DNA from: Lacisediminihabitans profunda
GTDB taxonomy: Bacteria; Actinomycetota; Actinomycetes; Actinomycetales; Microbacteriaceae
DNA length: 64,000 nucleotides
Reading direction: 5' to 3'
Assembly: GCF_008040105.1 (NCBI RefSeq)
Contig: NZ_VRMG01000005.1
Location: 186,001-250,000, forward strand
The notes beneath the pieces are model-generated. The model did no database searches, was not told where the DNA came from, and worked only from the letters and a program-made list of their open reading frames with translations. The translations under genes and the position numbers were made by a program. Positions 32,224-46,630 of this stretch are shown here, one piece after another; positions within the stretch are counted from its first letter, which is position 1; each line of letters starts with the position of its first letter.

Positions 32224-32697
32224 ATGAGTGGTCCCCGAATCATTTTTACGCGCTTTCTCAGCGGTGAGAGCCCGCGTCTCGCTCCCTGGCGCGAGCATCA
32301 CCGACGCGTGCTCAGCCAGACCGCCGTCGCCAGCCAGTCGACGGAGCGGGGTTCGGTAGTGGTGTGGCGCCTTGTCTCCTCCAACAACCGCGAGCTCGCG
32401 AGAAGTGCCGAGATCTTTGGCCAGTTCCACGACGCGGTCGCGTCGGCGCGATCGGCCGCATCCTCTGCGGAGATCACCACGGTCTGCCTCGTGAGCGACG
32501 AGCGGGGCGGGTCGTACGGCTGGTATCTCGCCGATGCCGACCGCCCGGTGGCCATCTGCGCCCGGTGGTACGACGCCGAACGCGAACGTCGTCACGCCGT
32601 GGAGCTGGCCATCAAGGGGCTCGCCCTGGCCACGGTCGGGGAGGGAGCCCGTGAGCTCATGGACAGCGGCGCCCGGCGCTCTGGTCGAAATGTCTGA
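32224..32697 (+). CDS. Small protein with two YegP/DUF1508-like repeats, first gene of the pst operon
   Basis: A 157-residue soluble protein with no named match. Two similar segments are visible: WRLVSSNNRELARSAEIF with AVASARSA (about 48-80), and GWYLADADRPVAICARWYD with AVELAIKG (about 99-132). Their spacing of W-x-L, then R-x-(L/V)-A, an aromatic, and A-V-x-x-A resembles tandem DUF1508 (YegP) repeats. It overlaps pstC by 8 nt, so it is translated with the transporter. Role unknown; a sensor or small-molecule-binding accessory is a guess. Confidence 0.7.
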   Translation: MSGPRIIFTRFLSGESPRLAPWREHHRRVLSQTAVASQSTERGSVVVWRLVSSNNRELARSAEIFGQFHDAVASARSAASSAEITTVCLVSDERGGSYGWYLADADRPVAICARWYDAERERRHAVELAIKGLALATVGEGARELMDSGARRSGRNV

Positions 32698-33721
32698 CCT
32701 GCTGGAGTTGACGGCGCCGGTCGCCGAAGTGCCGTCGCCCCGTGAGGACGCCCCCCGCCCACTTCGTGCCGCAATCGGCGGTCAGGACCGCCTGTTCGGG
32801 CTATTCACGCGCGGTGCTGCCTCGATCGTGCTCGTCATCATGACGCTCGTCGGCATTTTCCTGCTGATCCGAGGCCTGCCTGCACTGTCCGCCGCGGGAC
32901 TCGGATTCGTCACGACGCAGGCCTGGGAGCCCAACTCGGGCACCTTCGGCATAGCCGCGGTCATCACTGGAACGATCTTCATCGCCCTCACCGCGATCGT
33001 CGTGGCCATACCGCTCGCCACCGGCACGGCCCTCTACATCAGCGAGTACGCGCCGCGCCAGATCAAGCAGGCTCTGGTGAGCATCGTCGACCTCATGGCG
33101 GCCATCCCGAGCGTGGTCTACGGGCTGTGGGGACTCTTCCTGCTCCAGCCGAACATCCTTGCCGTGTCGCGGTGGATCGCCACGGTCTTCGGCTGGATCC
33201 CGATCTTCCACGTCACGGGATTCGATCCGGAAGACCCTCTGTCGAGCCCCACGATATTCACGGCCTCCACCTTCGTCGCCGGCCTGGTCGTCGCGATGAT
33301 GGTCGCGCCGATCATCTCATCGATCATGCGGGAGGTATTTACTCAGGCGCCGATGGGGGAGCGGGAGGGTGCGCTGGCCCTTGGGGCGACGCGCTGGGGG
33401 ATGATCCGAAGCGTCGTGCTGCCCTTCGGCCGCGGCGGGATGATCGGTGGGACCATGCTGGGGCTCGGGCGCGCGCTCGGCGAGACCATCGCGGTCTACC
33501 TCATCATCAGTCCGGCGTTCGTGATCCAGCCGCACATCCTCGAGAAGGGCTCCAATTCAATCTCGGCGCTCATCGCCCTCCGCTACAGCGAGGCGTCGCC
33601 CTTCGATATCTCCGCCCTGATGGCGGCCGGACTTGCCCTCTTCCTCATGACCCTCGTCGTCAACTTTGGAGCCTCGATCATCATCTCCCGCTCGCGTTCC
33701 GGATCGGCAAGCGACGGATGA
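32690..33721 (+). CDS. pstC: Phosphate ABC transporter permease PstC
   Basis: One of the two membrane subunits of the high-affinity phosphate importer. The 343-residue protein starts at ATG 32690 (MSDLLELTAP) and has six membrane helices. Typical PstC stretches are LMAAIPSVVYGLWGLFLL near 145, the EAA loop EGALALGATRWGMI near 227 and GLGRALGETIAVYLI near 258. The loop after GLFLLQP is long, as in actinobacterial PstC. It overlaps both the upstream small gene (8 nt) and pstA (ATGA, 4 nt). Confidence 0.93.
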   Translation: MSDLLELTAPVAEVPSPREDAPRPLRAAIGGQDRLFGLFTRGAASIVLVIMTLVGIFLLIRGLPALSAAGLGFVTTQAWEPNSGTFGIAAVITGTIFIALTAIVVAIPLATGTALYISEYAPRQIKQALVSIVDLMAAIPSVVYGLWGLFLLQPNILAVSRWIATVFGWIPIFHVTGFDPEDPLSSPTIFTASTFVAGLVVAMMVAPIISSIMREVFTQAPMGEREGALALGATRWGMIRSVVLPFGRGGMIGGTMLGLGRALGETIAVYLIISPAFVIQPHILEKGSNSISALIALRYSEASPFDISALMAAGLALFLMTLVVNFGASIIISRSRSGSASDG

Positions 33722-34989
33722 CCGTCATCGCTCCCGGAATCGTCACCGACCCGACACCCGACACCGTCGTCGTCGGTCCCCGATCCGAGCGGCCGGAAGA
33801 GCGCCGCAGCACCGGGGTCCTTCGTCGCTCCGACGTGCTCGCGATCCTGGGATCCGCTGTCGCGGCGATCTCGCTCACGGCTTGGTTGCTCACGCAGCTC
33901 ATGCTGTTCGACGGCGTTTTGCCCTTCGTGCTCGTCTCTTATCTCTTCTTCGTTCTCATCTACTCGATCGTCGTGCGTTTCGATGAGTCGCAGATGGCGG
34001 TCCGTGACCGCGTCGTGAGCGTCATAGTGCACTCGCTAGCCACGGTGCTGCTGCTCGTTCTCGCGGTGGTCGTCATTTACACCTTCGGGCGGGGCATCAC
34101 CGCGATCGTCCACTCGAATTTCTTCACCGCGGACATGAGCCAAACCGGTCCTCTCGATCCGCTGAGCTCCGGCGGCATCGTGCACGCGATTGCCGGCACG
34201 CTCATCATGATCACCATTGCACTCATCATCAGCATCCCGCTGGGGATCACCACGGCGGTCTTCATCAGCGAGTTCCCCGGTCGGTACGCGCGACTGATCC
34301 GCACAGTCGTCGAGGCGATGACCGCTCTGCCCTCGATCGTGGCGGGGCTTTTCATCTACGCGACCGTGATCCTCACGTTGGGTTTCGACCGGTCGGGCTT
34401 CGCGGCATCCCTGGCCATGACGGTGATGATGCTGCCCATCATCATCCGATCCGGAGACGTGGTGCTTCGTCTGGTGCCTGGCAACCTCAAGGAGGCATCT
34501 CTCGCGCTTGGCTCGAGCACCTGGCGCACGGTCTGGAACGTCACACTGCCGACCGCGCGATCCGGCCTCACGACCGCCATCATCCTCGGCACCGCGCGGG
34601 GGATCGGTGAGACCTCCCCGGTGCTCCTCACCGCGGGCCTGACCACCTACTTCAACGTCAACCCGTTCAAGGGCGCGATGATCTCGCTCCCGCTTGCGAC
34701 TTTCAGCTTCGTGAAGTCCCCGGAGCCGAGCATGGTCGCACGCGGATTCGGCAGCGCCGCGGTGCTGATGGTACTCGTGCTCATCCTGTTCGCCATCGCT
34801 CGCGTGATCGGCGGTCGCGGGCCCGGTGTCCTCACCGCTCGCCAGCAGCGGCGGCGCACCCAGCAATCGCGCGAAGACGACTACCGATTCACCGCCCGCG
34901 ACCTAGGCACTCCACCCCCGTCCGTCGCGACCGGTCTTTTCGCCGGATTGCGACGCCGAAAGATCACTCCGAAGGGCGGTCCGTCGTGA
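33718..34989 (+). CDS. pstA: Phosphate ABC transporter permease PstA (extended)
   Basis: Second membrane subunit of the Pst importer, 423 residues; ordinary PstA proteins are nearer 290. The extra length is an N-terminal cytosolic segment plus two added helices (about 35-80) and a basic tail of about 45 residues (GLRRRKITPKGG). Core signatures: IPLGITTAVFISEF near 175, VEAMTALPSIVAGLF near 199, the EAA loop EASLALGSSTWRTV near 259 and TARGIGETSPVLLTAG near 290. Start ATG 33718 overlaps pstC; the stop overlaps the PstS-like gene (GTGA). Confidence 0.92.
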   Translation: MTVIAPGIVTDPTPDTVVVGPRSERPEERRSTGVLRRSDVLAILGSAVAAISLTAWLLTQLMLFDGVLPFVLVSYLFFVLIYSIVVRFDESQMAVRDRVVSVIVHSLATVLLLVLAVVVIYTFGRGITAIVHSNFFTADMSQTGPLDPLSSGGIVHAIAGTLIMITIALIISIPLGITTAVFISEFPGRYARLIRTVVEAMTALPSIVAGLFIYATVILTLGFDRSGFAASLAMTVMMLPIIIRSGDVVLRLVPGNLKEASLALGSSTWRTVWNVTLPTARSGLTTAIILGTARGIGETSPVLLTAGLTTYFNVNPFKGAMISLPLATFSFVKSPEPSMVARGFGSAAVLMVLVLILFAIARVIGGRGPGVLTARQQRRRTQQSREDDYRFTARDLGTPPPSVATGLFAGLRRRKITPKGGPS

Positions 34990-36749
34990 CCTCGAAATCT
35001 CGCAAGCACGGCGCACGGCGCCGGGCAGTAATCAGCGGCATCGGCATGCTACTCGTTCTGGGCGTCGTTCTCGGCGGCACGGCCGCTGCACCCCTGTCGG
35101 CATCCGCTGCCGTCGGCAAGGAGTACTACCCGATCTCCGGCGTCGGGTCGACCTGGTCGGCCAATGCGCTCCAGCAGTGGATTCGCAATGTCTGGAACAA
35201 CTACCGCTGGAAGGTCGAGTACAACGATGCGGGGTCTTCCGCGGGCCGGCAGCTTTTCTCCCAGAACGGCGGCGGGTATGACTTCGCCGTGTCCGAGATC
35301 CCCTACCAGCTGAAGGACAGCGACAGTGCCGACCCGCGTCCGGCACGCAAGTTCGTGTACATGCCGATCGTGGCGGGTGGAACATCGTTCATGTACAACC
35401 TCGTCATCGGCGGCAAGAAGGTAACCAACCTGCGGCTCGGCGGGGCCACCCTGGCGAAGATCTTCACCGGAGTTATCACGAAGTGGAACGACCCGGCGAT
35501 CGCCGCCGACAACCCGAAGCTCGCCCTCCCCGCGACTCCGATCATCCCGGTAGTGCGCTCCGACGGCTCTGGCACGAGCGCCCAGTTCTCGTCGTGGATG
35601 CGCAAGCAATACCCCTCTATCTGGAGCGACTTCTGCGTGAAGGCGCAGCGTCCCGCCAACTGCGGCATCACCTCCAATTACCCCACGGTTGCGGGTTCGG
35701 CCTTCGTGTCCCAGTCCGGGTCAAACGGCGTGTCCGGATACGTGGCGCAGCCGCAGTACGTCGGGTCGATCACCTATGTCGAGTACTCCTACGCCCTCAA
35801 CTCCCGGTCCCCGGTTGCGAAGATTCTCAACTCCGCCGGGTACTACACCGAACCGACTGCCGCCAATGTGGCGGTGAGTCTGCTCGGGGCGAAGATCAAC
35901 CCGGACGAGTCGTCGCCCGACTATCTCACCCAACAGCTGGATGGGGTCTACGGCAATCCGGATCCCCGCACCTACCCGCTGTCCTCGTATTCGTACATGA
36001 TCATCCCGACCGCGCTCGAGTACGGCTTCACCGAGAACAAGGGGCTCACCCTCGCGGCCTTCACAAACTACTTCCTCTGTGAGGGACAACAGCAGGCCGA
36101 GGTGCTCGGGTACTCGCCGTTGCCAATCAACCTCGTGACCGCCGGCCTGGACCAGGTGCGCAAGATACCCGGCGGAGATCCGGCGACCATCAACATCGCC
36201 AAGTGCAACAATCCGACCTTCTCTGCGGACGGAAGCAACAAGCTCGCCAACACCGCGCCTCAGCCGCAGGTCTGCGACAAGCAGGGCGCCGACCAGTGCG
36301 CCACGGGAACGGGTGGCGTGAAGAGTCAGGCCACCGCGCCATCGAGTGGCACGAAAACCACCGGCGCGAGCGCTGGTGGAACGGGAACGGCCGCGGGGGC
36401 CGCCGCCGCCGCTACCGGCGCCGCAACAGCAGCCGACGGTTCATCCACGGGAAGCGACGGTCCGGCGCTCGCCCTCGCCGGCGCAACCGGCCCGTCAGTG
36501 GTCGCCGGAATCCCGACGATGCTACCGACCTCATCGGGGCAGTGGCTCGCCACCCTCGCACTCGCAGCGGTCGCCTTCCTCGTGCTGTTCGCCATCTTTG
36601 GACCACCTGCGATCGCCCGCAGAAACGCGATTCGCAAGCCTCGGGCCGTCGCCCGGGCGCCCGGACGAAGGATCCGTATGCCAAACGTTAATCTGCCCGT
36701 ATTCCGTAGACCACGCTCTCCTGAACCGCCATCAATGGGCGGTATCTAA
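34986..36749 (+). CDS. pstS: PstS-type phosphate-binding protein with C-terminal membrane anchor
   Basis: A 587-residue exported substrate-binding protein. N-terminal signal (about 13-38), then the two-lobe fold with GVGSTWSANALQQW near 51, KIFTGVITKWNDPA near 160, the phosphate-loop RSDGSGTSAQF near 190 and TYPLSSYSYMIIP near 325. There is no lipobox. Instead an Ala/Gly/Thr/Ser-rich linker (about 430-515) leads to one C-terminal helix (about 518-543) and a strongly basic tail. That is a single-pass anchor with the binding lobes outside, unusual for PstS, which is usually a lipoprotein. Start GTG 34986 overlaps the pstA stop. Confidence 0.88.
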   Translation: MTSKSRKHGARRRAVISGIGMLLVLGVVLGGTAAAPLSASAAVGKEYYPISGVGSTWSANALQQWIRNVWNNYRWKVEYNDAGSSAGRQLFSQNGGGYDFAVSEIPYQLKDSDSADPRPARKFVYMPIVAGGTSFMYNLVIGGKKVTNLRLGGATLAKIFTGVITKWNDPAIAADNPKLALPATPIIPVVRSDGSGTSAQFSSWMRKQYPSIWSDFCVKAQRPANCGITSNYPTVAGSAFVSQSGSNGVSGYVAQPQYVGSITYVEYSYALNSRSPVAKILNSAGYYTEPTAANVAVSLLGAKINPDESSPDYLTQQLDGVYGNPDPRTYPLSSYSYMIIPTALEYGFTENKGLTLAAFTNYFLCEGQQQAEVLGYSPLPINLVTAGLDQVRKIPGGDPATINIAKCNNPTFSADGSNKLANTAPQPQVCDKQGADQCATGTGGVKSQATAPSSGTKTTGASAGGTGTAAGAAAAATGAATAADGSSTGSDGPALALAGATGPSVVAGIPTMLPTSSGQWLATLALAAVAFLVLFAIFGPPAIARRNAIRKPRAVARAPGRRIRMPNVNLPVFRRPRSPEPPSMGGI

Positions 36750-36750
36750 C

Positions 36751-39462
36751 GTGACTCTCATGACCCCCCGAAGGGCGACGAGACGCGACCCCCTGGCTCT
36801 CTCGCTCACCCGAATCGCGTGCCTCGTGCTGGCCGCGGGATCCGTCGTCGGCATGTTCCTGGTTGCTCCTGGTAGCGCCACGTTGGCCAGGGCGGATGCC
36901 TCGTCGGCGATCACCGTCAAGTGGGCGAACGACTCGAGCTCGGCCTCGTCATTCCAGCCGGCGAGAGACCCGGCGAGCGTGCACTACGCCGGATTCAAGA
37001 ACCTGGCGGTGAAGATCGAACAGACCACGGGCATCACCAACCAGGCCCTGCAGGTCGACATCTCCGGATTCGCCGCGACCAAGCAGGCAACGGATGCCAA
37101 CGGTGACACCTGGAGCAGCGCGGAGAACTTCTTCCAGGCGATGCAGTGCTGGGGTCCCGATCCGCTCGCGGCCGACTTCAACGAGACCTGCGAGTGGGGC
37201 GGTCGATACGCGAACAACAATGGCCTCAACAGGAGCGTCTACCTCGACAATATCCCGCGGGTCGCCGCCAAGGACATCCAGGCGAGCGCGTTGAACGCGA
37301 CGGACGTGCCCTTCCGCACCTCCGGTGGAACGTCGGTCACCGGGCGCCAAGTGATCCAGGCGGGATCCAGTACGGTCACCTACCCGCTGCTCGATTACTT
37401 CGGCCCGGCCACGACGAATGAGGTTCAGAGCGTCCGGATCAATGGTGATGGCACCGGCGTTTTCAACTTCGAAGCCCAGACTTCCGAAGAGGCTCCTCAG
37501 CTCGGTTGCGGAACGGCGGAACATCTCCGATGTTGGCTCGTTCTCGTGCCGCGGGGCACCGTGTACGGGGGTCACGACAATTCGTGCAGCGACATTCTCG
37601 ACGGCTCCTACAACCCCTTCACCTATGGGCGCCCCAATTCCATTCAGGCGGGGAGCCCGGTCAATCCCGGCTGCGACTACTGGTCTAATCGAATCAATAT
37701 CCCGTTGGATTTCAACGCGACCGGCTCGACCTGTGCCCGGGGAAACACCGAACGCCGCTTGGTCGGCTCCCAGCTTCTGGTCGGGGCGATGGCGTCGTGG
37801 CAGCCGCAGTTGTGCGACGACCTCAAGACGACCTTCAGCTTCGCAACCAACCCGGACAGCGTGGCGCGACAACAGCTTCTCGATCAGCAGGCCGGTCTCG
37901 CGTTCTCCTCGTTTCCGATTGTCGGCAGTGAGCTCGACTCCCAACTCGGTGTCACTGAACTCGCCAATTCGAAGTTCAGCTATGCGCCGATTACGGTCAC
38001 CTCGGCGGACGTCGCATTCTTCGCCGAAGGAACCGACGGGCGGGTAAACGATCTCCACCTGTCTCCGAGATTGCTTGCGAAGCTTCTCACCCAGTCGTAC
38101 CGGTTCCTGGTGCCGTCGAGTGCGTCAGACGATTCGAGCAAAAAGTATCTCCAGCTCGGCACCGTGAACCGCACCTACGCCTACCTCAATCAGGACCCGG
38201 ACTTCCGGGCGCTCAACCCCAATTGGGCGCAGTTCAGCTCCAATCCCGCAATCGTGATCCCCGGCCCCGCGGGCGCAGACGCGATCCGCCAGGTCTGGAA
38301 GTGGATCCAGGCTGACAAAGAGGCGGCCGCCTGGCTCGCTGGTGCGCCGGACGACTGGGGCATGACGATCAATCCGTACTACCTGCCGAAGGGCGACGCC
38401 CGGGCCATGGTTCCCACGTTCACCGAGGCCGGAGCCCTCGCCCTCGACTCGAACGGTGCGTCGATCCTGAACCCGGTGGGTCTCAGCAATGCGGACAGCT
38501 CCCCGTTCGCTCTCAGCAAGACAACACTGGATAACTTCCCGAAGGGCGACGACAGCCACGTGCCGCTCAAGCTCAACATCGAGCGCTACCGGTTTGGCAC
38601 GCTGCAATCGGCCCCCTACTCGGATAACTTTCTGTCTGCCGCCCGCACCGTGTTCCGGGCCGATCCCGGTGCGAAGACGGTGTGGGATCCCACCGCGATC
38701 AACGCCGCCGGCGTCGCCGGAGACTGGGTGAGCGGGGGCGCCCAGGTCGCGGGCCAACGGTTCATGATCGCGATCACCGATGCCCCGTCGGCGCGGAGGT
38801 ATGCCCTCAGCAGCGCCGCGTTGCGACTCGACAACTCGACCACGAAGTTCGTGGCCCCGACCGCGGATTCGCTCTCCGCCGCTCTCGATTCGGCGCTGAC
38901 GGCAACCTCGGAACCCGCCGTGCAGCAGATCGATCCGGCCAAGGTCGTCGACGCCGGCTACCCGCTCACCGCAGTCGTCTACGCAACGGTGAACCTCACC
39001 GGCTCGGACGCCGCGGCTCGCACGGACTTCTCCCGCTTCATCGCCCAGGTGACGACGAAGGGCCAGGTGCCCGGCACCCAGCTGGGCGAACTGCCACCGG
39101 GTTACATTCCGTTGACCCCGGCTCTGGCCGGCCAGGCGGCCGCCGCGTCGGCCGCGGTGGCGTCCTTCGTCACTCCGACCGTCCCAGCATCGGCGGACTC
39201 GTCCTCCAATGGGTACGCCCAGGACAGTTTCACCGCCGCCGGATCGGGCGCGAGTGCGGCCTCGGGCGGGCTCGCCTCGGGTTCGCAGCGGCCGGGCATC
39301 GGCGCGAGCAGTTCACCCGCCCCCACTGCCTCAAACGGACGCACCCCCACAGCCACGAACGTGTCCCCGATTGCTCAAATGGCGCTCAGTGGCTCGCTCG
39401 CCACGGGGCTGTCCGGAGCGCTATTCGCCCCCCTTCTGTTCCGGGGGAGACGACTGCGCTAA
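36751..39462 (+). CDS. Giant secreted PstS-related surface protein
   Basis: A 903-residue exported protein that starts at GTG 36751 (ATG 36760 also possible), 1 nt after the PstS-like stop. Signal segment about residues 20-50. The body has PstS-like elements: SFPIVGSELDSQLG near 390, LHLSPRLLAKLLTQSY near 435, a long insert, then YPLTAVVYATVNL near 740 and GYIPLTPALAGQ near 785, which echo the PstS C-lobe. Several Cys pairs suggest disulphides. A Ser/Ala/Pro-rich stretch (about 810-875) ends in a hydrophobic helix and RGRRLR, a membrane tether with no LPxTG. Function unknown; a scaffold or second phosphate receptor is inferred. Confidence 0.85.
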   Translation: MTLMTPRRATRRDPLALSLTRIACLVLAAGSVVGMFLVAPGSATLARADASSAITVKWANDSSSASSFQPARDPASVHYAGFKNLAVKIEQTTGITNQALQVDISGFAATKQATDANGDTWSSAENFFQAMQCWGPDPLAADFNETCEWGGRYANNNGLNRSVYLDNIPRVAAKDIQASALNATDVPFRTSGGTSVTGRQVIQAGSSTVTYPLLDYFGPATTNEVQSVRINGDGTGVFNFEAQTSEEAPQLGCGTAEHLRCWLVLVPRGTVYGGHDNSCSDILDGSYNPFTYGRPNSIQAGSPVNPGCDYWSNRINIPLDFNATGSTCARGNTERRLVGSQLLVGAMASWQPQLCDDLKTTFSFATNPDSVARQQLLDQQAGLAFSSFPIVGSELDSQLGVTELANSKFSYAPITVTSADVAFFAEGTDGRVNDLHLSPRLLAKLLTQSYRFLVPSSASDDSSKKYLQLGTVNRTYAYLNQDPDFRALNPNWAQFSSNPAIVIPGPAGADAIRQVWKWIQADKEAAAWLAGAPDDWGMTINPYYLPKGDARAMVPTFTEAGALALDSNGASILNPVGLSNADSSPFALSKTTLDNFPKGDDSHVPLKLNIERYRFGTLQSAPYSDNFLSAARTVFRADPGAKTVWDPTAINAAGVAGDWVSGGAQVAGQRFMIAITDAPSARRYALSSAALRLDNSTTKFVAPTADSLSAALDSALTATSEPAVQQIDPAKVVDAGYPLTAVVYATVNLTGSDAAARTDFSRFIAQVTTKGQVPGTQLGELPPGYIPLTPALAGQAAAASAAVASFVTPTVPASADSSSNGYAQDSFTAAGSGASAASGGLASGSQRPGIGASSSPAPTASNGRTPTATNVSPIAQMALSGSLATGLSGALFAPLLFRGRRLR

Positions 39463-39592: not shown

Positions 39593-40669
39593 ATGCTCAA
39601 GAAGACCAAGCTGCGCCTCGGCGCGGTGGCAGTTGCTGTATGTACGGCAACTTTGTTCGGCGCAATCTCCGCGTCGGCCGACCCGGCCGCCGGAACCTTC
39701 AAGACCCTGTCCGGTGTCGGTTCCGACACCACTCAGGATCTCGTTGCCGGGCTCGCGACGGCGGTGACGTCGATCGGGTCCTATGACGCGACTGGGTCGG
39801 CGACCATCCAGACGAAGTCGGGCGGACCCTCGTTCGTTCGCCCGAACGGCTCCGGCGCGGGCAGCCAGGCGCTGAGCGACTCCGCGCAGGGGGGAACCCA
39901 CCTGTGGAACTCGGTGGACGTGACCGGCCAGATCGACTTCGCTCGTTCCTCGAGCGGGCCGTCCGGCAGCGGCACCCAGCTCACCTACATCCCGTTCGCG
40001 AAGGACGCCGTGACATTCGCGGTCAACGCCGCGAGCGACTTCCCGCGGGACATCCCCGTCGGAGCTTCCTCGCAGGATGCAACGAGCCCGGCGCCCTTCA
40101 CCCTCCGCAACATCTATCGCTGTTCGGTCACGTCGTTCACTGACGGAAACGGTCTGAGTGTCACCATTCGTCCGCTGCTTCCTCAGTCCGGTTCGGGAAC
40201 GCGGAAGTTCTGGCTGTCGAGCCTCGGTCTCTCCGAGACCGACATCACGGCCGGCGGGTGCGCGACCGACCTCGGTAACACGGTCGAGGAGCACAACGGC
40301 ACGTTCGTGACGGGCCCCGGGGACATCGCGCCGTTCTCCGTTGCCCAGTACATCGCGCAGGGCAACTGGCAGACCCTTCCGTCGCCCGTCATCGAGCGTC
40401 GTGGCGGAGTCGTCCTCGGCCAGATCGGTGGTGTCAAGCCCTACAACATCACCACCGTCGGTGCCGTTCTGAACACCTCCTTCCCGGTCGTGCGCAACGT
40501 CTACAACGTCGTGCAGACCTCGCGTCTCGGTGAGGCGGCCATTGCGGCGGCGTTCGTCGGCAGCACGTCGTCGGTGTGCTCCAATGCCACGATCATCAAG
40601 AAGTACGGCTTCGGCACCATCGGAAGCCTCTGCGGCAGCACCTCCACCACCGGCCCGTTCACTCAGTAG
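39593..40669 (+). CDS. Secreted PstS-like substrate-binding protein
   Basis: The 358-residue protein has a signal peptide (about 5-29, cleavage after ISASA). The mature part shows LSGVGSDTTQDLVAGLA near 37, RPNGSGAGSQALSDS near 84, IDFARSSSG near 112, PFAKDAVTFAV near 132, and LLPQSGSGTRKFWL near 191, whose Gly-Ser-Gly-Thr-Arg loop fits the phosphate site of PstS-type proteins. It has no lipobox, wall-sorting signal or membrane anchor, so it must be held by a partner or released. Start ATG 39593 has GAAGG 8 nt upstream. Third PstS-type protein of the operon. Confidence 0.84.
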   Translation: MLKKTKLRLGAVAVAVCTATLFGAISASADPAAGTFKTLSGVGSDTTQDLVAGLATAVTSIGSYDATGSATIQTKSGGPSFVRPNGSGAGSQALSDSAQGGTHLWNSVDVTGQIDFARSSSGPSGSGTQLTYIPFAKDAVTFAVNAASDFPRDIPVGASSQDATSPAPFTLRNIYRCSVTSFTDGNGLSVTIRPLLPQSGSGTRKFWLSSLGLSETDITAGGCATDLGNTVEEHNGTFVTGPGDIAPFSVAQYIAQGNWQTLPSPVIERRGGVVLGQIGGVKPYNITTVGAVLNTSFPVVRNVYNVVQTSRLGEAAIAAAFVGSTSSVCSNATIIKKYGFGTIGSLCGSTSTTGPFTQ

Positions 40670-40703: not shown

Positions 40704-42053
40704 ATGAACAAATTCTCCAAGCGCATCGCGGCAGTCGCCATCATCGGCGCCGTCGTCTTCGGCGGACTCACCATGGCGCAGGCGGCAAACGCTGACACTC
40801 TCGCCGGTGGCACCCTCACCCTTCACGGACCGATGCTCAACACCACCACGATGGGAGCGGTGATCACCACCGGCTCGATCTCGAGCAACCCGGCCTTCTA
40901 CGGGCTCACGTCCAACGTCGGCTGCCCCGCCGGATACCAGGGACGTAGCGATACCTTCGCCTACCAGAACGGTACGAATCTCGGCAACCTCTCCTCGAGT
41001 CGCAACGCTTCGGTCACCGCCTACGGCCACACCGGGCTCGACGGGCAGCCGATCGCGATGGACGACACGTACTCGATTCCGGGCACGAACCCTTACGTGA
41101 GCAGCAAGTCGCTTGATAGTCTCGCGACACCGCTCGTGACCGGTAACTGGGAGATTCGCCTTTACTGCTCGGCGGTATCGACCTCGATCAACTTCACGAC
41201 CGACAAGTACTTCTTGCTCCCGATGACCGTGGATGTCACGGCGGGAACCTGGGCGGTGTACACGGCCCCGGTCGTGAAGACCACCCCGACGGTCTCGCTG
41301 ACCGGACAGGCGCAGGCCGACAAATCGGTTCTGCTCACCGGTACGGTGAAGGACGGCGCCAACACGGCGACGGCCGCAGTGGGTTCGATGAAGTTCGTGG
41401 ACACCACGCCAACCACCCCGGTCACGCTGGGTTCCCCCGCCGTTGCCAGCGGTGTGGGCACTTTGACGACCGCAGTACTTCCGGTCGGTACCTACACGTA
41501 CACGGCTCAGTTCATCAACAACAACGATGCCACGTACAACGATTCCGCGGTCTCCGCGGTCGTCACTGTGGTGGTCTCCTCGAACGTCGCGCCGGTCAAC
41601 ATCACGGTCGCCATCCCCTCGGGAGTCGGCTCGCTGACCCTCACGGGTGTCGCGTCCTCCGTCAACCTCGGAACGGCGGCGCTGAACGGCGGACTGCTCA
41701 CGGCCACGGGAACCCTCCCCGCCGTGACGGTCACCGACACCCGCCAGCTCGGTTCGGCGGCGTGGGCCCTCACCGGTATCACGACCGACTTCACCGCCGG
41801 CACCAAGGTGCTCGACGGTAAGTACCTCGGTTGGCTTCCCACCACGACCGACTCCGCAACCAACGCCGGAACCATCGGCGCCACGGTTGCCGCCGGAGTC
41901 GCGAACGGACTGAAGACGGCCGCCATCCTGGCGAACGGTTCAGTCGTGGACCAGAAGGCGACGACGAAGGTTGGCGCCACGCTCAACCTCGCCGCGCCGG
42001 CGAACACCCCGGCCGGTGCGTACAGCGCGACCCTCACGTTGACGCTCGTCTAA
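40704..42053 (+). CDS. Secreted Ig-like / WxL-like surface protein
   Basis: A 449-residue exported protein with a signal peptide ending near AANA (about residue 32). The N-terminal domain (about 33-190) is Gly/Thr/Ser-rich. An Ig-like bacterial repeat follows (TPTVSLTGQAQADKSVLLTG near 195 to VVTVVVSS near 290). The C-terminal 150 residues resemble the WxL domain of low-GC Gram-positives: VTVTDTRQLGSAAWALTG with W354-x-L356, a second Trp in YLGWLP (W377), and the closing GAYSATLTLTLV. WxL domains bind peptidoglycan or a partner non-covalently (established knowledge). The assignment is by motif and because a WxL-interacting-type protein follows. Confidence 0.75.
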   Translation: MNKFSKRIAAVAIIGAVVFGGLTMAQAANADTLAGGTLTLHGPMLNTTTMGAVITTGSISSNPAFYGLTSNVGCPAGYQGRSDTFAYQNGTNLGNLSSSRNASVTAYGHTGLDGQPIAMDDTYSIPGTNPYVSSKSLDSLATPLVTGNWEIRLYCSAVSTSINFTTDKYFLLPMTVDVTAGTWAVYTAPVVKTTPTVSLTGQAQADKSVLLTGTVKDGANTATAAVGSMKFVDTTPTTPVTLGSPAVASGVGTLTTAVLPVGTYTYTAQFINNNDATYNDSAVSAVVTVVVSSNVAPVNITVAIPSGVGSLTLTGVASSVNLGTAALNGGLLTATGTLPAVTVTDTRQLGSAAWALTGITTDFTAGTKVLDGKYLGWLPTTTDSATNAGTIGATVAAGVANGLKTAAILANGSVVDQKATTKVGATLNLAAPANTPAGAYSATLTLTLV

Positions 42054-42159: not shown

Positions 42160-43308
42160 ATGTTCGTGTCCCGCGTCTCCCTCGCCATCGTGCTCGCCAT
42201 GGGCCTCGCCCTCGCGCCCCTGGCGTCCGCCTTCGCCTCCGCGACCACGGTGGGTTCGGTCGCCGCCGATCCGAACCCGGCGCGATGGAGCGTGCAGGCC
42301 GCGAACTCCTCCGGACCGGACGGCCGCGAGTCTTTCGCCTACGCCGTCAACCCCGGAACCCAGATCAACGACTACGTCGCCGTGTCCAATCAGGGCACGA
42401 CGGCACAGACCTTCACGCTGTATGGCACCGATGCCGTCAACGAATACGCCACCGGCGCGTTCAGCCTCCTTCCGTCGTCCACTCCGCCGAAGGACTCCGG
42501 CTCGTGGGTGAAGTTGTCCCAGCCGACGGTGACGCTGCAGCCGGGCATCCAGGCCCGCATCCCGTTCACCATGCTCGTGCCGTCCGACGCCACCCCCGGC
42601 GACCACACCGCCGGAATCGTCGCGTCCGTGACGCAGAAGAGCACGGACAAGAAGGGAAAGACCATCGTGTTGGAGGAGCGGGTCGGTGCGCGGATCTACC
42701 TCGACGTGTCCGGTGCGCTCACCCCGCGGGTGGCGGCGGTCGGTGTCGTCTCCGGCTTCACCTCGCCGTGGAATCCCTTTGGCGGCGGCAGTTCCGGTGT
42801 CGACTACGCAGTGACGAACGTCGGCAACTCGCGGGTGGACGTCACGCAGACCGTCTCCATTCGCGGACTCTTCGGAATCCCTCTCGCGACCTTCGACGCC
42901 GGCCGTCTCCGGAACGTGCTGCCCGGACAGTCCGTGCACACGAAGCTCGACCGGTCGGGCATTGCCCCGCTGTTTCTGCTCTGGTCCACGGTGACTCTCA
43001 AGCCCATCGCTCCCACCGACCGGGTCGCTCAGTCGTCGCTGAGAAAGGCCGACGGCTCCCCGGCCACACCGCGCGGTCCGGCAACGTACAAGACGGTCTC
43101 GAGCGAGACACTCACGGGCGCGATCCCGTGGACTTTGCTCGTGCTCGTGCTCGTGCTGGTCGGAGCGGTGTATCTGCTTGCAAGGTATGTCGCACACACG
43201 CGCGAACGTCTCTACGAGGCGATCGACGCGGCCTCCGCAGACGCTCGAGAGAAGGCTCTTGGCGAAGCGCGCGCACCACAGCTCACGAAGGCGGGAGCAG
43301 ACCAGTGA
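42160..43308 (+). CDS. WxL-interacting-type (DUF916) membrane-tethered surface protein
   Basis: A 382-residue protein with a signal peptide (about 5-28), an N-terminal domain like the DUF916 peptidoglycan-binding domain of WxL-interacting proteins (RESFAYAVNPGTQINDYVAVSN near 49; TLQPGIQARIPFTMLVPSDA near 125; GDHTAGIVASV near 146), a second beta domain (about 180-305) and one C-terminal helix (about 325-348) with a charged cytosolic tail. In low-GC Gram-positives such proteins are encoded beside WxL proteins and bind them (established knowledge), and here the WxL-like gene is directly upstream. ATG 42160 has AAAGG 5 nt upstream. Confidence 0.82.
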   Translation: MFVSRVSLAIVLAMGLALAPLASAFASATTVGSVAADPNPARWSVQAANSSGPDGRESFAYAVNPGTQINDYVAVSNQGTTAQTFTLYGTDAVNEYATGAFSLLPSSTPPKDSGSWVKLSQPTVTLQPGIQARIPFTMLVPSDATPGDHTAGIVASVTQKSTDKKGKTIVLEERVGARIYLDVSGALTPRVAAVGVVSGFTSPWNPFGGGSSGVDYAVTNVGNSRVDVTQTVSIRGLFGIPLATFDAGRLRNVLPGQSVHTKLDRSGIAPLFLLWSTVTLKPIAPTDRVAQSSLRKADGSPATPRGPATYKTVSSETLTGAIPWTLLVLVLVLVGAVYLLARYVAHTRERLYEAIDAASADAREKALGEARAPQLTKAGADQ

Positions 43309-43943
43309 GGACCGCCTTCGCGGCCTGGATCGTGGTCGCTGCGATCGGGCTCACTCTCTTCGGTGGTCTGGGGGCCGCCTTCGCCGATCCGGCTCCCGGT
43401 CCGAGCGACCAGCCCAATCTCACCGTGCGTATCCCCGGGAAGGGCGGCCACGATGGCGGCGAAACGACCCCGACCACGAGCCCTACGCCGTCCACCGGCG
43501 GTGCGCCAGCCGTGGCGCAGAACCCGACCCCGAACGCCGCGCACCTTTCCCTGGATCGGCGACGAGTGCACGTCGGGGACCAGATGACGGCCACCGGCCA
43601 CACGTTCACCCCGGGCGAGAAAGTCCAATTCGTGGTCTACCCGGAGCGGGTCGTTCTTGGCGGCTTCAGCACCGATTCGGAAGGCACCGTCGTCGCGACG
43701 ATTTCAGTGCCAACGAGACTGGCACCAGGCGAGCACACGATCGAGGCTGCCGGCTGGGTATCTCATCGGGTGGCCAACGCTCAGTTCACCATCGAAGCCG
43801 GCGGGGGAGAGTCATCGAATTCTCCGACCTGGATAGCCTGGGCCATCGGGGCAGGCGGTCTGGCGTGCGGACTCGCCGCGTTCCTCGTCGCCGCCTCGAA
43901 CGGCTGGTTGCCCTTCCTGCTGAGCACGAGGACGGTCGCGTGA
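43305..43943 (+). CDS. Small membrane-anchored Ig-like surface protein
   Basis: The 212-residue product has a signal segment (about 5-28), a Pro/Thr/Gly-rich stalk (about 30-75), one Ig-like beta domain (HLSLDRRRVHVGDQMTATG to NAQFTIEAG, about 80-163) and a C-terminal hydrophobic helix (about 170-200). No LPxTG precedes the helix, so anchoring is by membrane insertion. Its GTG overlaps the DUF916-type stop (GTGA) and its stop overlaps the sortase-like gene (GTGA). It occupies the place of the small anchored protein in Firmicutes WxL clusters (inference). Confidence 0.82.
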   Translation: MRTAFAAWIVVAAIGLTLFGGLGAAFADPAPGPSDQPNLTVRIPGKGGHDGGETTPTTSPTPSTGGAPAVAQNPTPNAAHLSLDRRRVHVGDQMTATGHTFTPGEKVQFVVYPERVVLGGFSTDSEGTVVATISVPTRLAPGEHTIEAAGWVSHRVANAQFTIEAGGGESSNSPTWIAWAIGAGGLACGLAAFLVAASNGWLPFLLSTRTVA

Positions 43944-44920
43944 GCCTCGCAACTGAGGAGCGAACCGCGGCGACCGAAGCTGAGCCGTCTAAGTCGCGCG
44001 CGAAAGCCCGAATCTTGCCCGTGTGGCTGCGGAGACGACCGGCCGCCAAGTCCCATCGAGTGCGAGCGACGCCGCGCGAGGTGCGCTGGTGGGTTGGCGT
44101 GGTTTGGCTCGCACTCTCGGCCCTGCTTCTCGGATTTGTGGGTCACGTAACCCTGTTCGGGGCGCTCCAGCATTCGCGCAGCCAGGCCATCGGTTACTCG
44201 CAATTGCGGTCCACACTCGCCGAGGCGACGACACCTCTCGGACAACTCGACCTCAATAAGGAGCTTGTGGCGGCGGGCACGCCCGTTGCCCTGCTTCAGA
44301 TCCCCGCACTCGGGCTCACCGAGGTGGTGAGGGAGGGCACGACGTCGACGCAGACCCGCCAGGGTGTGGGCCACCGGCGTGACACCGTCATGCCGGGGCA
44401 GGCTGGGGCGAGCGTGCTCTACGGCCGTCAGGCCACCTTTGGCGGACCGTTCGGAGGCCTCGCGAAGCTCGTGCCTGGCGACAGCATCACGGTGACCACG
44501 GGGCAGGGCAAGCAGTCCTTCATCGTCTTCGGACTGCGCCGCCCAGGCGACAGGCTGCCGGCGGCCCTCGCTGAGGGTAAAGGCCGGCTCACGCTCGTCA
44601 CGGCGGACGGCGTCGCGCTCGCCCCCTCGAGCCTGCTCTACGTCGACGCGGCGCTCAAAGGGACTGCACAAGAGACTCCGGCGCCGGTGTTCCTCACGAA
44701 GGCGATCGGTCCATCCGAAGACGTCATGCAGCCGGACTCGACCGGCGCCCTGCCGTTGCTGTTCGCCGTGCAATGGCTGCTCATTGCCGCGATCCTCTCC
44801 CGCTGGCTCACCAGGGCCTGGGGGCGCTGGCAGGCCTGGATCGTCTCGATTCCCGTCCTGCTCGTCGTGGGGGCGTCCGCCGCGGATGCCGCCGCCGCCC
44901 TTCTCCCCAACCTCGTTTAA
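43940..44920 (+). CDS. Sortase-fold protein lacking catalytic residues (pseudo-sortase)
   Basis: The 326-residue protein starts at GTG 43940 and has one N-terminal helix (about 50-75), a sortase-like beta barrel (about 115-245) and two C-terminal helices (about 268-318). Barrel marks of sortases are present: [47 protein letters not shown] and LTLVTADG. However, the usual GHR that carries the catalytic His is G162-R163-Q164, the Cys of TLxTC is A222 (TLVTA), and the Arg of the last strand is missing (SSLLYVDA). Transpeptidation is therefore not expected. No protein of the operon has an LPxTG signal. A structural or binding role in the surface complex is inferred. Confidence 0.82.
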
Positions 44921-44949: not shown

Positions 44950-45843
44950 ATGACGGAAACGAAGCTCCTCCCCACCTCGTCGGCCTTCGTCGAGACGTCG
45001 AAGACCCGCCACAGTGAGGTCTTCCACGCTTATCGACACTCGGAGGCAACGACGGCAGTTCCCTCGGGCCTCGCCACCCTCGACGCCCGCGCAATCTCGG
45101 CCTGGTTCGGCGACCACAAGGTGCTCGACCGTGTGTCGCTCACGATGGAGGCCGGAAAGATCACCGCCCTCATCGGGCCGTCGGGCTGCGGCAAGTCCAC
45201 GTTCCTCCGCATCCTCAACCGCATGCACGAAATGATCCCGTCCGCCTCGCTCGCGGGGGAGGTGCTGCTCGACGGACACGACATCTACGACCAGGGCCGC
45301 CGAATCACCGACGCGCGGCGAGACGTTGGGATGGTCTTCCAAAAGCCGAACCCCTTCCCGGCGATGTCGATCTACGACAACGTGGTCGCAGGACTCAAGC
45401 TGAGCGGCCAGCGCGCCAGCAAAGGGGACAGGGATGTCATCGTCGAAACCTCGCTGACCAAGGCCGGCCTGTGGAAAGAGGTGCGGGACCGGTTGCGCCA
45501 GCCGGGTGGAGGGCTCTCCGGTGGCCAGCAGCAGCGGCTGTGCATTGCCCGGTCGATCGCGATCCGCCCGCGGGTGCTGCTCATGGACGAGCCGTGCTCC
45601 GCGCTCGACCCGACCTCGACCCGCGTTATCGAGGAGACGATGCTCGAGCTCGCTCACGAGGTCACGATCGTGATCGTCACCCACAACATGCAGCAGGCCC
45701 AGCGCGTCTCGGAGAACTGCGCATTCTTCCTCGCCGCGCAGGGCCAGCCCGGCGGCATCGTCGAACATGGCAAAACCGAAGCGATGTTCGGCAATCCCGT
45801 CGACTCGCGCACCGCCGACTACGTGCACGGCCGTTTCGGATAG
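44950..45843 (+). CDS. pstB: Phosphate ABC transporter ATPase PstB
   Basis: The ATP-hydrolysing subunit of the Pst importer, 297 residues from ATG 44950 with AAGGA 7 nt upstream. Walker [10 protein letters not shown] near 78, Q-loop VFQKPNPFP near 126, signature LSGGQQQR near 182, Walker [14 protein letters not shown] near 202 and switch His in IVTHNMQQA. An N-terminal extension of about 45 residues precedes the cassette. It is separated from pstA by seven genes for exported or membrane proteins. No phoU is found in the window. Confidence 0.94.
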
Positions 45844-45847
45844 ACCG

Positions 45848-46630
45848 GTGAGCCACGAGACCGGCGCCCGCCTCGGCCTGGAGTGGATCAGCATCGCTGC
45901 GCTTCTCGGGCTGGCGGTGTGGGGCGTTTCGGCGTGGGTAGGCTTGGCGACCGCGAACCACCGCCACGGGCATTCAGCGGCCGTGATCTCCGCGGCTGAG
46001 GTCGTGCCCGCCCCGGCGCCAGCCGACCCCGCGGCACCCGCTGAGCCGACGGCACCGGCAGTACTCGCTGTCTCCATCGCCTCCCGAGTCGACTCGGCGT
46101 GGCTCGACCGCGTCTCCTCCGGCACCGGCATCCCGCGGCGCGCCCTCGCGGCCTACGCCGGCGCATCCCTCGCCCTGGCCACCGAGAGACCGGGCTGCCA
46201 TCTCGGCTGGAGCACCCTCGCGGCGATCGGCCACGTCGAGTCCGACGACGGGCGGCACGGCGGGGGCGTGGTGAGTGACACCGGGTATCCGAGCCTGCCG
46301 ATCGTCGGCCCGGCGCTCGACGGCGGCGCCTTCGCCGGCATCCACGATTCCGACGGGGGAGAGTGGGACGGCGACCGGGCCTGGGACCACGCTGTCGGGC
46401 CGTTCCAGTTCATCCCGCAGACCTGGCGGGCGTGGGGCGCCGACGGCAATGGCGACGGCCTGGCCGATCCGAACCAGTTCGACGATGCGGCGCTCACCGC
46501 CGCACGCTACCTGTGCCACGCGGGCGACCTCTCGAGCGTGGATGGCTGGCGACGGGCGGTGCGCTCGTACAACCACTCGGACAGCTATGTGGACGAGATC
46601 GCGCGGGTGGCCAACTCGTACCGCTCCTAG
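45848..46630 (+). CDS. Membrane-anchored lytic transglycosylase (MltB/SLT_2-like)
   Basis: A 260-residue peptidoglycan-cleaving enzyme starting at GTG 45848, only 4 nt after pstB. One N-terminal helix (about 12-35), a Pro/Ala linker and the lysozyme-like domain: IPRRALAAYAGASLAL near 98, the catalytic Glu E131 in AAIGHVESDDGRHGG, and GPFQFIPQTWRAWGADGNGDG near 184, the SLT_2 hallmark. WRRAVRSYNHSDSYVD closes the fold. Placement at the end of the pst/surface operon suggests it makes room in the wall for the surface complex (inference). It ends convergent with marR (4-bp overlap of stop codons). Confidence 0.88.
   Translation: MSHETGARLGLEWISIAALLGLAVWGVSAWVGLATANHRHGHSAAVISAAEVVPAPAPADPAAPAEPTAPAVLAVSIASRVDSAWLDRVSSGTGIPRRALAAYAGASLALATERPGCHLGWSTLAAIGHVESDDGRHGGGVVSDTGYPSLPIVGPALDGGAFAGIHDSDGGEWDGDRAWDHAVGPFQFIPQTWRAWGADGNGDGLADPNQFDDAALTAARYLCHAGDLSSVDGWRRAVRSYNHSDSYVDEIARVANSYRS

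Follow-up and report, generated by a model that had tools for sequence, protein, structure and literature searches.

A conserved sortase-fold protein without catalytic residues, encoded beside PstS2 in an atypical Pst-type operon of Actinomycetota

The window, a stretch of 64,000 nucleotides from Lacisediminihabitans profunda (contig NZ_VRMG01000005.1), contains an operon on the + strand with the gene order pstC, pstA, PstS1, PstS2, PstS3, WxL-like, WxLIP-like, small TM protein, dSrt and pstB. The permease genes pstC (32690..33721, the start being chosen among several) and pstA (33718..34989) matched TIGR02138 at 255.6 bits (cut-off, 196.45) and TIGR00974 at 206.5 bits (cut-off, 193.45), respectively. 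Three PstS-type proteins are encoded next: PstS1 (34986..36749; TIGR00975, 198.7 bits against a cut-off of 205), which has a C-terminal hydrophobic segment; PstS2 (36760..39462; 900 aa), for which a PstS fold was modeled; and PstS3 (39593..40669), a PBP_like_2 protein in which no C-terminal anchor was seen. These are followed by the exported protein SurfIg (40704..42053), which carries the C-terminal WxL-like pattern WAL...YSATLTLTLV and whose WxL membership is weak, by a WxLIP/DUF916-like membrane protein (42160..43308; PF06030, 20.6 bits against 27.3), and by a small protein (43305..43943) with an apparent signal peptide, a C-terminal TM segment and no Pfam match. The pseudo-sortase, here termed dSrt (43940..44920), is succeeded by a pstB-like ATPase gene (44950..45843), whose match to TIGR00972 (336.0 bits) was just under the cut-off of 343.2 and the best of the families listed, and by a lytic transglycosylase, SLT_2 (45767..46630; ORF limits, the true start probably being later).

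Among 18 WxLIP-like members, 17 matched PF06030 at an E value of 0.01 (best, 1e-8), while the WxL family PF13731 was matched by 3 of 18 members (best, 0.0087) and not by the SurfIg of the window. When the SurfIg and WxLIP profiles were each searched against PDB sequences, 0 matches were obtained. Elsewhere, this genome encodes an intact class E-like sortase (AHR, TSC, ERI) and, together on another contig (L131), canonical pstS, pstC, pstA and pstB genes; PstS, PstC and PstB of this set exceed the NCBIfam cut-offs, and its pstA is named by similarity only. Plasmid carriage was considered and rejected, as the plasmid collection gave no match at 1e-15.

As read in the window, the dSrt ORF starts with GTG at 43940, where it overlaps the stop of the preceding gene by 4 bases, and ends with a stop codon at 44918-44920, encoding 326 aa. 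Its match to the Pfam family Sortase (PF04203) scored 54.5 bits, where the cut-off is 26.6, and exceeds chance. The best NCBIfam subfamily was the class E sortase (NF033747) at 62.8 bits, which does not reach the curated cut-off of 160. The AlphaFold2 model (75 sequences in the alignment; pLDDT, 90.5; pTM, 0.82) comprises a sortase barrel at about residues 112-242, an N-terminal helix (46-94) that would form a TM segment plus stalk, and two C-terminal helices (267-294 and 296-320) that would form a TM hairpin; the C terminus reads LLPNLV. The closest PDB structure was that of sortase D5 (4d70; Z 18.3 over 153 residues), and the sortase E structures 5go5 (Z 15.6; 34% identity over 127 residues) and 5cuw (Z 15.4) were also matched. 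The first-pass annotation had described a sortase that keeps its fold and has lost all three catalytic positions, and it was correct in both respects, the residues being G162-R163-Q164 at GHR, TLVTA222 at TLxTC and, by alignment, L232 in place of Arg in the last strand. A Cys/His/Arg triad elsewhere in the barrel was ruled out, as the whole protein has no Cys. Judged from its sequence and model, dSrt is a sortase by fold and not by function.

The extent of this loss was deduced from several collections of homologues. A search of 59 related genomes (60 with its own) found a full-length homologue at E < 1e-50 in 9 of the 59, the next match being at 8e-14. A scan of named genomes with dead-specific patterns yielded 331 relatives, of which 80 were kept (Microbacteriaceae, Cellulomonas, Promicromonospora, Streptomyces, Micromonosporaceae, Jiangella, Amycolatopsis, Bifidobacteriaceae, and others). 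In these 90 rows (window + 9 + 80), which were partly chosen by the dead-specific patterns, the His position was Arg in all 90 and the Cys position was Ala in 79 and Gly in 11. Because the patterns biased this set, the question was put again in a pattern-free protein search covering 296 genomes from the class; dSrt was carried by 39, its own genome included. The 45 nonwindow matches were read for 41 (40 loci plus L206), leaving out G196:C62, G212:C3, G102:C1, and G110:C102. In the 40 loci, Arg (37) or Lys (3) stood in place of His, and the residue at the Cys position was Ala (29), Ser (7), Gly (2), Thr (1), or Val (1). A phylum search gave 20 matches, of which 16 were newly fetched, the other 4 being the window and three loci already read. 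Five of them lay in pst-type loci, and all were dead (L211-L215); ten were without a detected pst operon, and all were intact (L216-L222 and L224-L226). Altogether, 136 sequences including the window were read (the 90 rows, the 40 class-wide loci, L206, and L211-L215), 131 of them distinct and five counted twice from two collections; the His position was always Arg or Lys, and the Cys position was never Cys. The strand-8 Arg position (232) is mostly Val, Ala, Leu, or Ile in the family.

The one remaining match of the phylum search, L223 (8846-10330, + strand, genome G460), has GYR for GHR and TTT for TTC, keeps the strand-8 Arg, and has no pst operon detected nearby. It is apparently a second dead sortase of independent origin, so catalytic loss also happens outside the pst setting.

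The dN/dS of dSrt was 0.05-0.39 in ten close pairs, indicating purifying selection; on the same scale, pstB gave about 0-0.14 and PstS2 gave 0.09-0.50. The substitutions are family-wide, and no member read in a pst setting has TLxTC, which argues against a mere mutant copy. The further proposal of the first-pass annotation, that the protein was repurposed as a binding or scaffold part, is supported as to repurposing by the catalytic loss in every member read, the purifying selection, and the conservation of family-specific residues, while a binding or scaffold role is what we infer.

To define what was lost and gained, 51 comparator loci were offered, of which 14 gave no ORF by the motif filter and 2 failed trimming, leaving 35 class E-like rows; on rereading, intact sortases were recognized among those left out (L014, L018, L022, L027, L183, L003, and L202). 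In the 35 rows, 4 of which were in the wrong frame, His was present in 31, Arg164 in 35, Cys in 33, and Arg232 in 31; compared with these, the dSrt family has lost His163, Arg164, Cys222, and Arg232. Residues typical of dSrt and atypical of the comparators, counted in 39 dead rows, were R146 (29), R147 (35), D148 (33), and S158 (33), the TGQG motif (T187, 35; G188, 36; Q189, 37; G190, 38), and R200 (37), G203 (34), D204 (31), R216 (38), and D236 (37). For Q154, R163 (or Lys), Q189, R200, and D236, conservation in the 40 class-wide loci was 38-40, and R146 (25), R147 (34), and D148 (30) vary in divergent members. The primer sequences of PMC5148588 place Tyr229 of Streptomyces coelicolor SrtE1, the residue proposed there to read the LAxTG signal, directly after Gly-His, and R146 of dSrt directly follows Gly-His at the same site. 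Taken with the triad loss, this replacement indicates that substrate reading, like the chemistry, appears to have been lost.

For tree building, the 4 wrong-frame rows were removed, leaving 31 comparators, and groupings were taken as the sides of an unrooted branch. A tree built from 39 dead and 31 active sequences placed the dead ones on one side of a 100/100 branch. In a tree with other classes, the branch separating 32 Pst-linked sequences from the 29 remaining ones had a support of 99/80, the bootstrap not having settled, and omission of the catalytic columns gave 99/75. With the active side taken as the outgroup, L215 branches first; it has GRR and TTS, retains the strand-8 Arg, and adjoins PstS2, PstS1, and pstCAB. 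L206 has GRR and VTS, has no strand-8 Arg, and is without the R-R-D and TGQG motifs. From their sequences, the early-branching L215 and L206 suggest a stepwise catalytic loss and, as to its order, a loss of His and Cys before Arg. The chemistry would have been lost on or after the gene's joining the PstS2 operon, with the new motifs arising later.

The neighbors of dSrt were counted in 85 distinct loci (87 before duplicates were removed) out of 128 with dSrt, each having at least 7.5 kb upstream and at least 3 kb downstream. PstS2 was present in all 85, pstB in 83, PstS1 in 81, and PstS3 in 80, 2 loci being without a detected pstB and 4 without PstS1. Detection was less frequent for WxLIP (58) and for the WxL-like protein (54). 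The lytic transglycosylase was found in only 21 and is therefore perhaps outside the system. The first-pass annotation had suggested WxL or DUF916-type proteins as partners; this was not borne out, with WxLIP in 58 loci versus PstS2 in 85, and WxL/DUF916 as a general obligate partner was rejected, since 27 of the 85 loci showed no WxLIP with profiles built from 8 seeds, which may miss divergent ones. At one locus of the same bacterial family (L036, genome G016), no WxL-like or WxLIP gene was detected, and the PstS3-like ORF continues into repeat-like sequence.

A PstS2-fragment search of the 296 genomes, run separately, was positive for 40. Both genes were found in 37 genomes, dSrt only in 2, PstS2 only in 3, and neither in 254 (Fisher p, 4e-41, a value not to be taken literally since the sampled genomes are related). 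In the PstS2-only genomes, the contig breaks off behind the last operon gene detected (L203 and L205) or inside dSrt (L204, with a 44-bit edge piece), and dSrt was not found on other contigs of these three at 1e-20. Genome G193, dSrt-only by the search, has a divergent PstS2 (116 bits) adjoining its dSrt, and the dSrt of G073, a genome 78% complete, sits on a contig of 3.5 kb. At L111/L137, there was no pst gene in the approximately 10 kb downstream, the upstream side being cut by the contig end. Pairwise distances of dSrt correlated best with those of PstS2 (r, 0.77 for 57 loci and 0.85 for 28 loci); the correlations with the operon genes lie close together (0.60-0.77), and their ancestry is shared. 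After allowing for pstA, the value of pstB (0.54) exceeded the PstS1 and PstS3 values.

The model of PstS2 (pLDDT, 83.6) has an N-terminal beta-rich region at about residues 50-326, a PstS fold at 327-807, and a low-confidence linker followed by a C-terminal helix at 870-895; the end of the protein is a hydrophobic segment plus a basic tail. Residues 327-807 matched Mycobacterium tuberculosis PstS3 with a Z score of 31.6. In a profile alignment with PstS1 and canonical PstS, IPGPAGADA stood opposite VHRSDDSGT and a Phe stood opposite the pocket Asp, from which it was concluded that the phosphate signature is not retained. In Pfam, the PstS2 of the window was unmatched, and PBP_like_2 was found in 2 of 52 members. 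The region of residues 50-326, which lies outside the PDB-matched rows of the whole model, has four invariant cysteines (C130, C144, C250, and C258). The PstS1 of the window keeps RSDGSGT and has Glu in place of the pocket Asp of canonical PstS. RSDGSG(T/S/A) or a close variant was found in 16 aligned members, 14 of which have Glu for Asp, and judging by this residue a change of oxyanion specificity is possible. The pocket Asp is present in some PstS1 members, e.g., L103 and L108. In PstS3, DFARSSS and PQSGSGT replace the PstS signature, SGT standing there without the Arg and the Asp position being occupied by Ser, as read from a weak profile alignment with PstS1 (probability, 44.9).

None of the six further exported proteins encoded in the window operon carries the sorting motif [LNI][PAS]xT[GANS] in its last 70 residues. 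The first-pass annotation had stated that no operon protein has a sorting signal, which holds for the window and not in general, as some orthologous loci carry one. LASTG was found in the small TM protein of L043 and L048; LASTG (L099 and L112), LARTG (L080), or LPRTG (L090 and L091) in the WxLIP-like protein; and LAVTG (L117) or IAPTG (L171) in PstS2, each with a hydrophobic stretch and a basic tail behind it. Since the sortase of the operon is itself dead, those proteins may need an active sortase encoded elsewhere.

Because the catalytic residues are lost and yet the protein is conserved beside a second phosphate-type uptake system, dSrt probably serves a structural or binding purpose rather than an enzymatic one. 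More specifically, we consider it rather likely that dSrt is a conserved pseudo-sortase that forms a noncovalent docking subunit in an alternative ABC importer of the Pst type. The basis for this assignment is the predicted fold, the family-wide triad loss, the purifying selection, the tree grouping with stepwise loss, and the linkage to PstS2 and the pst genes. In the proposed arrangement, dSrt would be a three-pass membrane protein with its class E-like barrel, incapable of sortase transpeptidation, on the external side of the membrane, and the stalk helix and C-terminal hairpin would fix this barrel beside PstCA. The remodeled former substrate groove (R146, R147, D148, R163, and R200), on which these Arg residues would converge according to the strand order, may grip a segment of PstS2 or of its carried partner. 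The barrel would dock PstS2 and, via PstS2, other binding proteins at PstCA, and such docking would hold all three PstS proteins at the permease, PstS1 and PstS2 being tethered to the membrane and PstS3 unanchored. The WxL/WxLIP module would be an accessory in about two thirds of the loci and may tie the assembly to peptidoglycan; in PMC10599100, binding to peptidoglycan and to WxL is proposed for WxLIP. As for the imported substrate, the retained residues of PstS1 point to phosphate or a related oxyanion. The constant linkage of dSrt and PstS2 can instead reflect coregulation.

Another function for the barrel would be as a noncleaving reader of C-terminal tails, that is, a holdase for the hydrophobic-plus-basic ends of PstS1 and PstS2 or for an LAxTG-type signal, passing some of these to the active class E-like sortase. 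The sorting signals of the LAxTG/LPxTG type that certain orthologues of the WxLIP-like, small TM, and PstS2 proteins carry, among them PstS2 of L117 and L171, keep this explanation alive, and the tail of PstS2 and the intact class E-like sortase in the same genome are consistent with it. It was nevertheless judged unlikely, as the proposed LAxTG-reading Tyr229 of SrtE1 is Arg146 in dSrt, the window proteins are without the motif, and signals occur in only a minority of loci. The conserved Arg residues (R147, R163, and R200 in 90/90 rows of the partly dead-selected set) and the position of the gene in a pst operon would also suit an oxyanion or phosphate sensor, in which these residues, if they converge, would form a binding site for phosphate or for a phosphorylated polymer of the wall and would also gate the transporter. 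This is improbable, given that R147 (34/40) and R200 (38/40) were less constant in the wider set and that Arg is common in protein contacts. We also attach little probability to dSrt keeping only the site for the second substrate (lipid II or peptidoglycan peptide) and so anchoring the transporter at sites of wall synthesis, a function that would agree with the use of lipid II as an acceptor by sortases, as given in PMC5148588, and with the adjoining lytic transglycosylase in 21/85 loci.

A residual enzyme with another nucleophile, Ser or Thr, is very improbable: Ser or Thr occupies the Cys position in 8/40 class-sample loci and T221 is common, but all 90 rows of the partly dead-selected set have Ala or Gly in place of Cys, and His and Arg are gone too. 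The loss of all catalytic residues could finally be that of a decaying pseudogene or mutant copy, which is effectively ruled out by the dN/dS of 0.05-0.39 and the strong conservation of the family-specific residues.

Building on the docking subunit, we tentatively propose, as a wider reading that may or may not prove right, an undescribed envelope import machine of Actinomycetota in which a Pst-type ABC core would be joined to an obligatory scaffold of the pseudo-sortase and the giant signature-less PstS-fold protein, with WxL/WxLIP modules in some lineages; an enzyme and a solute receptor would then both have turned structural. Sortases are drug targets and are recognized by their fold. Since dSrt exceeds the Pfam Sortase cut-off, and a scan of members gave 75/75 matches to the class E model at an E value of 0.001, annotation can count them as enzymes, and annotators may then look for sortase substrates that may not exist. 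In 39 of the 296 genomes sampled from the class, the family is moreover a marker of a second Pst-type system, and a pseudo-sortase with early-branching intermediates offers a case for studying the conversion of an enzyme to a structural part. Pseudoenzymes as such are a known kind. Neither a sortase pseudoenzyme family nor such an operon was found among the matches listed for the open-licence literature, an absence that is not proof, and in the available excerpt of PMC7866108 neither "sortase" nor "WxL" occurs.

Compared with the class E sortases (SrtE1 of S. coelicolor, 5cuw; SrtE of Streptomyces avermitilis, 5go5), dSrt shares the barrel fold, the GxGH and PG..G motifs, and the N-terminal membrane helix, but it has His, Cys, Arg, and the LAxTG-reading Tyr replaced, scores 62.8 bits where 160 are needed, and has the C-terminal helix hairpin and the linkage to PstS2. 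The intact sortases L216 and L226 are similar in architecture, as judged by sequence, with a similar C-terminal hairpin and an RLLP ending, but they have His, Cys, and Arg, and no pst operon was detected around either. The operon resembles canonical PstSCAB in that PstC and PstA are above the cut-offs, PstB is just under, and PstS1 keeps most of the oxyanion signature; it differs in having three PstS-type proteins, two of them without the full signature, plus a pseudo-sortase. It is separate from the canonical pstSCAB of its own genome, whose PstS has an apparent lipobox, whereas PstS proteins of the atypical operon have hydrophobic C-terminal ends. Finally, as in the WxL/WxLIP (DUF916-DUF3324) clusters of Lactobacillales, a WxLIP-like protein adjoins a WxL-like exported protein; unlike in those clusters, the WxL match is weak, WxLIP is undetected in 27/85 loci, and the module is joined to a transporter.
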